Shown here in pieces: positions 8,481 through 43,249 of a stretch of DNA of 43,249 nt. The notes below the pieces were generated by a model. The model was not told the DNA's origin, searched no databases, and was given only the letters and a program-made list of their open reading frames with translations. Every line of letters begins with the position of its first letter. Within the stretch, counting starts at the first letter, position 1. Made by a program: the position numbers and the translations under genes. Source of the stretch: Candidatus Saccharimonadota bacterium (GTDB taxonomy: Bacteria; Patescibacteriota; Saccharimonadia; Saccharimonadales; Saccharimonadaceae); NCBI GenBank assembly GCA_017516075.1, contig JAFWDS010000007.1:1-43249 (forward strand), given 5' to 3'.

Positions 8481-8855
8481 ATGCACATTAGGTTTCAGGA
8501 GGCTAAAAACATTCTTGAGAAAAAAGCGTACGATTGGGCCGTAAAAGAGCAAGAACGGATGGGTTGCATGGCGGAACCAATTTCGCTAAAATTCGATTCT
8601 GATTTTTTGACATCAGATAGAGACAGCTGCATCGTTTCGGTCTTTTACGATCAGGTAACCAAAAAGGCAATATTGAGACGCGATTGGCTTGACGACATGG
8701 GAATAAAATATAACATTCTCACAAATTTAGATGAAATCAAACAAGTTGCGCCAAAGTCTGCAGCACACATGCTAAGTAATGGCATGAAGTTATTTCGCTA
8801 TTATGATGGACATACTGGTGGAGTCACCAGAAAAATGGAAAAAGAATGGATTTAG
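8481..8855 (+). CDS. Hypothetical protein, 124 aa
   Basis: I do not recognise a family. The protein is soluble and mixed alpha/beta, with an N-terminal helix rich in Lys and Glu (EAKNILEKKAYDWAVKEQERMG), a strand pair SCIVSVFYDQVTKKAILRRDWLDD, and a C-terminus YYDGHTGGVTRKMEKEWI. There is no signal peptide or membrane segment. A strong SD site GGGGGTGAG lies 12 bases before ATG. It has its own consensus promoter and a strong terminator, so it is a single-gene unit. It is the first gene inside the inverted-repeat block and convergent with the 121-aa gene. It could be a mobile-element accessory gene; the function is unknown. Confidence 0.7.
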   Translation: MHIRFQEAKNILEKKAYDWAVKEQERMGCMAEPISLKFDSDFLTSDRDSCIVSVFYDQVTKKAILRRDWLDDMGIKYNILTNLDEIKQVAPKSAAHMLSNGMKLFRYYDGHTGGVTRKMEKEWI

Positions 8856-10381: not shown

Positions 10382-10432
10382 ATAGTGTATTGAGCAATAG
10401 GGCTCAAATCTAACACCAAGGAGGTGAGTACA

Positions 10433-10501
10433 TTGAAAGTTTTAAGAAAGGAGAATTTTCTGTTTTTGGGCTTTTGCCCCTTATTTCCTATTTCATTTTA
10501 G
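10433..10501 (+). CDS. Putative 22-residue leader peptide
   Basis: A TTG start lies 7 bases after AAGGAGGTG. The 22 codons encode a basic start (MKVLRKEN) followed by a Phe/Leu/Pro-rich stretch, FLFLGFCPLFPISF, and TAG. Internal hairpin GGGC/GCCC (about 10468-10479) and a strong hairpin around the stop (10495-10515, ATTTTAGGC/GCCTAAAAT) follow. The arrangement looks like translation-dependent attenuation of the downstream sigma-like gene. The peptide might also act by itself as a small hydrophobic product. Confidence 0.5.
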   Translation: MKVLRKENFLFLGFCPLFPISF

Positions 10502-10515
10502 GCTACGCCTAAAAT
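10495..10515 (+). promoter_or_regulatory. Hairpin at the end of the leader peptide ORF
   Basis: ATTTTAGGC-TAC-GCCTAAAAT overlaps the leader stop codon. There is no U-tract, so it is not a simple terminator. A ribosome at the stop codon would melt it, a plausible translational switch. Confidence 0.5.
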
Positions 10516-10559
10516 TTCACATAGATTCACTTCGAACATAGTTTATGGAGGAAAAACAC

Positions 10560-11045
10560 TTGAAGAAACCATCAAACGAAGTATTGAAAATCGAAGATAG
10601 CACAAACAACGTTATTGTGGAGGTAGAAAACATGGCAAAAACTCAGAAGTCCCTATTTATCGACATTATGACTCTGTGCGTTTGGAGGCTTTATGCAGCT
10701 ATTCTTGGCTCATCACCGATAATGAGTCGCGAAGAACTCTTTTCCGGTGATAAACCAGCCGTCAGCAGCGATGAGTTTGAAAAACTGACAGCGATTATAG
10801 ACACTTTACCGATGAAGGCTCGAGTCGTATTGGTCTTGCGTTTCGGACTTATGGATGGGAAGGCTAGAAGCCTCGAAGACGTCGGCAAGGAGCTTAATAT
10901 TACTTGTGAACGCGCTAGGCAGCTCGAGGCGAAAGCCCTGAGGATAATGCGAAGCCCCAGTCGGCTATGCAAACTTCCGGCACTCTTCGGATTTGTTCCC
11001 CCAGTGGAACCAAAATCGGACATTGAAGATGTCAATGCTATATGA
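10560..11045 (+). CDS. Stand-alone sigma-70 region 4 protein
   Basis: About 161 residues. The C-terminal half is a clear sigma-70 region 4: [32 protein letters not shown], then [20 protein letters not shown], matching the housekeeping pattern 'LRFGL.DG..RTLEEVG...VTRER.RQ.E.KAL..LR.P'. In sigma factors this region binds the -35 element and the RNA polymerase beta flap. Region 2, which melts the -10 element, is absent, so the protein cannot act as a normal sigma factor. It may pair with a separate region 2 protein, modify polymerase, or inhibit. Three in-frame starts are possible: ATG 10545 without SD, TTG 10560 and ATG 10632, the last two each 8 bases after GGAGG. The segment before 10632 has no recognised homology. 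Confidence 0.75.
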
Positions 11046-41626: not shown

Positions 41627-41953
41627 TTACATCTTAATCTCGGCGTCTACCCCTGCAGGAAGAGAAAGATTTTGTAAACTTTCAATCGTTTTTGGCGTAG
41701 CATTAGAGATGTCAATTAGTCTCTTGTGTACCTTCATCTCAAATGCTTCACCGCCAGTCTTATAAACGTGTGGAGACTTCACCACAGTAAAAGTGCTTCT
41801 CTTAGTAGGCAGAGGGATTGGCCCACTGATTGTGGCGCCAGTTCTAATAGCGGTATCCACAATTTGTCTTGCACTCTGATCGATCACGCGATGATCATAG
41901 GCTTTAAGTCTAATGCGGATTTTGAGACCCTCATCTTTTTTGACTTCTGTCAT
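41627..41953 (-). CDS. rpsJ: 30S ribosomal protein S10
   Basis: A 108-residue ribosomal protein that also takes part in transcription antitermination. Matching segments are [59 protein letters not shown] and [11 protein letters not shown]. It is followed by its own terminator and not by rplC, so the S10 operon is split. An SD AAAGGA precedes ATG, with promoter TGTGCTATAAT at plus 42028-42038, giving a leader of about 70 bases. A tuf remnant lies upstream, in the usual tuf-rpsJ order. Confidence 0.97.
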
Positions 41954-42082: not shown

Positions 42083-42199
42083 CTACTTGATAACCTTAGT
42101 AATCACACCAGAACCGACGGTCTTGCCACCTTCACGGATAGCGAAACGATCCTGATCATTCATAGCCACAGGTGCCAAGAGTTTTTGTAAGAAAGTGAC
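42083..42199 (-). pseudogene. tuf: 3' remnant of tuf (elongation factor Tu)
   Basis: On the minus strand the last 30 or so codons of EF-Tu are intact: [20 protein letters not shown] then [13 protein letters not shown] and a stop. Matching stops near 42199, where the expected G-D-N-V-T context is lost and unrelated sequence begins. Only about 8% of the gene remains. Because EF-Tu is essential, an intact copy must exist elsewhere, possibly at the other end of the element that starts here. The fragment keeps the normal place upstream of rpsJ and its terminator. Confidence 0.85.
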
Positions 42200-42264: not shown

Positions 42265-42558
42265 ATGGATTTCGAAATAGATGCCAATTTAAATACGGAG
42301 TGGAAAAAGACGGATACTCCTATTCAAATTAACGATATTTGCTATATAATCCCGCTCCAACAGGAATTTATCTGCGGGTATGTTATTCCATATGGGCAAT
42401 TTGAATACCTCTATTTTAATGACTGGGATTACGAACACTTTGTTTTTGCGATACAGAAAAAAGTAGATGGGCATAATTACGCCAGAGTCTTAGACAAGAA
42501 ATCGGAAAAAGTTCACGCATTACATATACTCAGAAAGGCAAAACCGTATGAATCATAG
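42265..42558 (+). CDS. Hypothetical protein, 97 aa
   Basis: I do not recognise a family. The protein is small and aromatic-rich, with beta-strand-like segments ([40 protein letters not shown]) and a basic C-terminus [16 protein letters not shown]. No signal peptide or clear membrane helix. It is the first gene after the tuf remnant and overlaps the repeat-protein gene by 11 bases, so the two are probably one operon and may work together. Lower GC content than the core genes supports acquisition. Confidence 0.65.
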
Positions 42559-43249
42559 TTATGAACCATCACTATCTCCAGTACAAGATAATCTAGAAAG
42601 AATTAACGATAATTCGCCCCACGAATCATCCACATATCCCACTAATACTAAATGGGATGATCTAAAAACAATCAATCATGTGGCGGAAAACACCGATGAT
42701 GAAGTACATGAAAAAATCTTAGACGCAATGAACGAACAAAAGACTAAAGGAAAGTCGCAAAAAGTAGGTAAGAAAACGCTCGCAACTTTATTTAAGGACA
42801 AAAAAAATACAACGCAATTAGCTCAAGATCTTGGCATCAATCATCCTGATATTAGTGCCTTACTTGAGATGGAAGGATACGAAAAATGCGGAATAAGACT
42901 GGGGAAAAGCATTTATTTTACTGAAGAAGATGAGGAGACAATCTCAGCTTTCTTTAAGGATAGAAAGATGACAACGCAACTAGCTGAGAAGCTTAGTGTC
43001 AATTATAGTGACATCTGTGCCCTCCGTAAGACGAAAGGATATGAGGATTGTGGGATAAAGCTAGCTAAAGGTATTTATTTTACCGAAGAAGATGAGAAAA
43101 AAATCGCTACATTCTTTAAGGATAAAAAGACAACGAAACAATTAGCTGAGGAAATCGGTATCAATCCTATTGACATTAGTGCTCTCATCAATACGGAAGG
43201 ATATGAGGATTGCGGAATAAAGCTAGATCATGGTATTTATTTTACTGAA
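42548..43249 (+). CDS. Tandem 54-residue repeat protein, helix-turn-helix-like (partial)
   Basis: The ORF starts at ATG 42548 and stays open to the window end (234 codons seen). After a Ser/Asn/Asp-rich start of about 77 residues come 54-residue repeats: units start near LATLFKDKKN, ISAFFKDRKM and IATFFKDKKT. Each unit has a helix-turn-helix-like core such as TTQLAQDLGINHPDISALLE, a turn MEGYEKCGI, and the strand-like end SIYFTEEDEE. DNA repeats of 162 bases are still similar. Such arrays suggest sequence-specific DNA binding or a scaffold, but no family was recognised. The C-terminus is outside the window. Confidence 0.75.
   Translation, partial: MNHSYEPSLSPVQDNLERINDNSPHESSTYPTNTKWDDLKTINHVAENTDDEVHEKILDAMNEQKTKGKSQKVGKKTLATLFKDKKNTTQLAQDLGINHPDISALLEMEGYEKCGIRLGKSIYFTEEDEETISAFFKDRKMTTQLAEKLSVNYSDICALRKTKGYEDCGIKLAKGIYFTEEDEKKIATFFKDKKTTKQLAEEIGINPIDISALINTEGYEDCGIKLDHGIYFTE

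Follow-up and report, generated by a model that had tools for sequence, protein, structure and literature searches.

The repeat array that runs off the end of the stretch of DNA analyzed here probably belongs to a free-standing homing endonuclease, which would read its site by a row of winged helix-turn-helix (HTH) units and has been inserted behind tuf, the gene for elongation factor EF-Tu. The stretch (the window, 43,249 nucleotides) is the entire contig C36 of a 924-kb genome assembled in 37 contigs, and the array gene appears to continue at the end of another contig, C13. A first-pass annotation made from the window alone had proposed a modular DNA-reading protein; the nuclease domain encoded on C13, invisible to that reader, turns the protein into a probable modular nuclease.

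Array gene probably shared by two contig ends

The 5′ part of the array gene occupies positions 42548–43249 on the forward strand as a reading frame open to the contig end. The repeat array in it is confirmed, Tandem Repeats Finder giving a single array in the whole window (42911–43249, period 162, score 419). Read in the phase helix 1–HTH–wing, it holds three full units followed by the initial residue of a fourth, exactly as the first-pass annotation had counted. In the phase adopted for the present analysis, the 54-residue units U1 (42806–42967) and U2 (42968–43129) are complete and U3 (43130–43249), cut by the contig end, retains 40 of its 54 residues; all three, on the forward strand, were delimited as winged HTH units by unit comparison and an AlphaFold model. 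Ahead of unit 1, a helix is encoded at 42758–42805 on the same strand (model residues 2–12 helical). Of the frame described as fixed across the units, IYFTEEDE is invariant and GYEDCGIKL nearly so. The view that the array expanded recently is upheld in part: such an expansion inside the window is rejected, the units there being just 70–76% identical to each other at the DNA level; to the C13 units, U3 is up to 88% identical and U2 97% identical over 108 nt.

A whole-genome search for units revealed no array beyond those at the ends of the window and of C13, the latter on the opposite strand. The open frame on C13 (375 aa) encodes three more units, full or partial, then a last unit that is degenerate, and finally a C-terminal domain. 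The gene order on C13 is fusA, a surface-protein gene, and the complete tuf; 58 bp beyond the stop codon of this tuf lies the array gene's 3′ end. On the window side the order is array gene, a small gene, a 96-bp tuf 3′ end, and rpsJ. We infer that the window array and the C13 part are probably one gene; both contig ends are explained by one insertion between tuf and rpsJ, since these genes are adjacent or one gene apart in relatives. The join itself is not beyond doubt, because C36 and C13 end on mutually shared repeats: 98 nt of the window (43022–43119, forward strand) recur without change at the very start of the C13 gene part, and the last 79 nt of the contig (43171–43249, forward strand) recur likewise within one of the C13 units. 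Strains may differ, one having the four-unit array U1-U2-U3-last and another the five-unit array U1-U2-Uy-Uz-last, with the last unit counted; alternatively, a single gene copy may contain seven or more units.

Insertion between tuf and rpsJ

The flanking host gene on the window side is rpsJ, for ribosomal protein S10 (41627–41953, reverse strand), a reading frame that comes after tuf in relatives. Near it, at 42083–42178 on the reverse strand, the final 96 bp of tuf (31 codons and the stop codon) are present as a displaced second copy. Its identity with the corresponding end of the complete tuf on C13 is 87.5%, with nearly all changes synonymous; the 12.5% difference is at the between-species level in the genus. 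Assuming that C13 joins the window contig, the layout is a complete tuf with one end and a displaced second end past the endonuclease gene, which runs antisense to its host gene. The element has a G+C content of 0.35–0.39, compared with 0.44 in its surroundings. In genomes G298 and G228, tuf and rpsJ are adjacent, and in G222 and G297 they are separated by one other gene; no second tuf end is present in four relatives carrying other DNA between tuf and rpsJ (with rpsJ inverted in G289). The sequences reveal an insertion with a duplicated tuf end here and empty sites in relatives, and it is in this specific form that the earlier suggestion of a probable mobile element is supported. Judged from comparison with relatives, either of the two tuf ends may be the foreign one. 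A tuf 3′ fragment in G299, considered as a second insertion, was rejected, the fragment being a contig end.

A tuf 3′ end that is both restored and duplicated is reminiscent of the att sites of integrated elements, and the insertion could be of the integrase type familiar from tRNA genes, the array nuclease being simply carried along. We regard this as very improbable: no integrase is encoded in the 1071 bp on the window side or the 1186 bp on the C13 side, although such a gene is possible in the unassembled middle, and the similarity of the two copies (87.5% identity) extends over 96 bp instead of being confined to a short, perfectly matching core. As to introns, a scan of L001 and L003, between them spanning both ends of the element, gave no Rfam family at the gathering score, and so no group II intron.

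The tuf–rpsJ interval may be a general insertion spot, other DNA being present there in relatives. A defence or self/non-self nuclease carried as cargo in this variable spot, its array recognizing foreign DNA, would be in keeping with the other single genes that other genomes carry between tuf and rpsJ, and with the location of the relative L059 in a cassette-like cluster whose equivalent in the present genome holds other small genes. However, PADLOC returned nothing for the C13 protein and HTH-type matches only for L059, and the duplicated tuf end is unique to this insertion among those examined; a role in defence is accordingly judged unlikely.

Upstream gene and relatives

Upstream of the array gene, and overlapping its start by 11 bp, is a small gene of 97 aa (42265–42558, forward strand), 38–42% identical to the small genes upstream of L059 and L060. 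Strong matches to it occur in 3 of 174 genomes of the genus, and the array nuclease is present in all three. A weak relative of the small gene (E 8e-7, one stop) at 230–496 of L120 (G722:C15) has no nuclease alongside.

The closest named relatives of the array gene are in Ca. Saccharibacteria genomes. L059, a full-length relative from goat jejunum, and L060, cut near its very end, both encode six units of about 66 aa and the nuclease in a single gene, with the small gene directly upstream; relatives of this type occur in gut Saccharibacteria. Among further relatives, L062 combines at least three units with the nuclease, L061 carries mTERF repeats with the same nuclease, and in L063, from Bacilli, the nuclease comes with different repeats, with a DUF4379 domain, and with a NUMOD-like tail. 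Nuclease versions with DUF4379 arrays were found in 13 of the 295 family genomes searched and, with a homologous nuclease domain, also in Listeria phages. No viral relatives were detected by tblastn in the viral_contigs scans, and the phage and plasmid matches span the nuclease domain only.

Several observations were made beside these. The 563-aa protein of L111 (914–2602, G754), encoded between miaA-like and thrS-like genes, has an uncharacterised N-terminal region besides its four HTH units and shows no nuclease domain, and L124 (G838) encodes an SF2 helicase with a C-terminal array of HTH units resembling those of L059. In L074 (G000:C23, 6074–9863), small genes are separated by copies, about 100 bp each, of the ychF promoter and first codons; the junction of one copy folds into a long hairpin (z −4.8), but the true ychF start does not. 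This ychF-start region (with 4255–4360 in L059) looks like the result of repeated insertions, and the same place in L059 holds the array nuclease. In L048, direct repeats of non-coding DNA (8508–8666 and 10417–10564), about 159 bp long and 82% identical, lie on either side of a DUF4379 nuclease gene close to tRNA-Val and prfA, and L041 and L060 have nuclease genes in this same neighbourhood.

Fold of the units and variation among them

Each 54-residue unit is predicted to be a winged HTH. In the AlphaFold model of the window array (mean pLDDT 71, from a six-row alignment), the units fold as helix-helix-helix-strand-strand, with the second helix at unit positions 2–9, the third at 13–22, and the wing strands at 30–32 and 35–38; the units of L059 are likewise modeled as winged HTH. 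VIA-align superposed a unit on DNA-bound RacA (Z 7.5, 2.0 Å, 61 of 67 residues), a Z value in the range that possibly means a common arrangement only. The initial reading of the repeats as helix-turn-helix is supported by the model and this superposition. With Foldseek alone, neither model matched a PDB entry at E ≤ 0.001. In Pfam, L059 and L060 match HTH models strongly; the matches of the window and C13 proteins are all weak and include HTH models. A TALE-type repeat (33–35 aa, two helices) was rejected, the units being of 54 aa with three helices and a two-strand wing.

Among the six available units, few and mutually related as they are, nonsynonymous differences per codon comparison amount to 0.49 at positions 7–23, which comprise the HTH turn and recognition helix, and to 0.18 elsewhere, a density about 2.8 times that of the rest of the unit, while synonymous differences are flat (0.14 in both parts). 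Positions 7–23 were picked post hoc, after inspection of the data; for the segment 11–23, the permutation p is 0.02. The most variable positions are 13 and 14, at the start of the third (recognition) helix, and position 33 in the wing turn is also variable. Variation had been described as limited to the presumed recognition helix; it is enriched there but not confined to it, extending to the end of the preceding helix and to the wing turn. Entropy clustering alone is weak: the best 12-residue window has p 0.056 in the window-type units and 0.84 in L059; in L060 it has p 0.051 and falls outside the HTH. The concentration at positions 7–23 is suggestive, and the units may read DNA in a sequence-specific manner. 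It is a tentative proposal, which we hold to be possible but doubtful, that the units make up a modular system with one short sub-site per unit, the sub-site depending mainly on positions 13–14 and on the wing turn at 33–34, so that the array might be readable as a code like those of TALEs.

C-terminal nuclease domain

The C-terminal domain of the C13 protein is probably an EDxHD/Vsr/MTES_1575-like nuclease, homologous to I-Bth0305I and Vsr, as judged from family alignments. A profile of 14 members searched against the PDB gave one match at E ≤ 1, the homing endonuclease domain 3r3p (‘Mobile intron protein’), which is marginal at E 0.0027; a profile built from only two nuclease sequences gave no sensible PDB match. 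Pfam MTES_1575 is weak in single members but matches 10 of the 14 when aligned, and DUF559 matches 3 of 14. Residues S1, P3, E38, D40, E56–G59, H63, K72, and E88 are invariant in the 14 members and D69 is nearly so, these numbers being family alignment positions; they may include counterparts of the active-site E, D, H, and D of I-Bth0305I. For L059, AlphaFold modeled much of the domain poorly (pLDDT near 30), and the assignment consequently rests on sequence.

Arrays of HTH units without this nuclease, as in L111 and on the SF2 helicase L124, would suit a transcription regulator or structural DNA-binding protein, with the nuclease-like domain either inactive or part of another gene. Against this stand the acidic, His, and Lys positions of the family, which are intact in the C13 protein, and the identical order of parts within the single genes L059 and L060; such a role seems to us highly unlikely.

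Discussion

Binding of DNA by the units, cutting, and mobility are what we infer for the putative homing endonuclease. In the proposed mechanism, the array of winged HTH units would bind a long DNA site, each unit contacting a few base pairs through its recognition helix and wing, and the C-terminal nuclease domain would cut at the bound site, expected in or near the tuf 3′ end. Repair from an element-bearing copy would then bring the small gene, together with that for the nuclease, to a position behind tuf. EF-Tu would remain intact because the incoming copy brings its own tuf 3′ end, the old end being left beside rpsJ. Taken as a whole, the first-pass reading is partly upheld, in its HTH units and, in specific form, its mobile element, but not in the restriction of variation to the recognition helix.

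If this reading is right, a group of ultrasmall bacteria has a nuclease of its own in which similar DNA-binding modules are strung together, nature's near equivalent of the engineered modular nucleases; its likely target can be named (the tuf 3′ end), so that recognition is directly testable. The route that selfish genes take in fungal mitochondria, lodging at an essential gene's end and leaving the gene unbroken, would also extend to these bacteria. Should the modular code hold true, the module would serve several enzymes, given the arrays on the helicase and those without this nuclease.

The general kind of protein, a module array followed by an EDxHD/Vsr-like nuclease, is already recognized: phage group II intron homing endonucleases consist of three to five modules of about 60 aa, after which comes a C-terminal nuclease (about 100 aa) with a distant relationship to EDxHD/Vsr (NAR 2025, PMC12350094). 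The present protein shares that order of parts. Their modules, however, are distantly CapR/DUF4379/DUF723-like and they reside in group II introns, whereas here the units are winged HTH and the gene lies behind tuf with no Rfam intron. The winged HTH modules and the tuf 3′-end site appear to be new; no description of winged-HTH arrays on such nucleases was found in the literature searched, mostly outside subscription journals. I-Bth0305I (PDB 3r3p), the sole solved structure matched by the nuclease profile, has its nuclease tethered to a long multi-part DNA-binding region (reviewed in PMC3943268) and resembles the present protein in this extended region, here predicted; the similarity is marginal, and the present array is of like units in tandem, in a gene belonging to no recognized intron. 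The DUF4379 zinc-ribbon array nucleases of Saccharibacteria and Listeria phages also combine a homologous nuclease domain with a tandem array, but their modules are zinc ribbons, often on both sides of the nuclease, whereas the winged HTH units precede it. Related candidate-phyla bacteria are known to carry homing endonucleases of another family, LAGLIDADG, in their rRNA genes (PMC11270868).

With TALE, STAR, and pTERF proteins (PMC11417379), the present array has in common tandem units proposed as piecewise DNA readers. Prokaryotic mTERF-like repeats bind specific DNA sequences (PMC11417379), and L061 pairs mTERF-like repeats with the same nuclease; the fold here is different, with winged HTH units of 54–66 aa and a code only proposed. 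Finally, the duplicated-gene-end layout is the same as that of mobile ORFs in fungal mitochondria (Allomyces, Glomus), where the host gene end is duplicated and restored and the endonuclease gene lies between the new and displaced ends (PMC3630166). Those ORFs sit in organelle genes and encode LAGLIDADG enzymes in the described atp6 case, whereas the element described here carries a different nuclease family and is antisense to its host gene.
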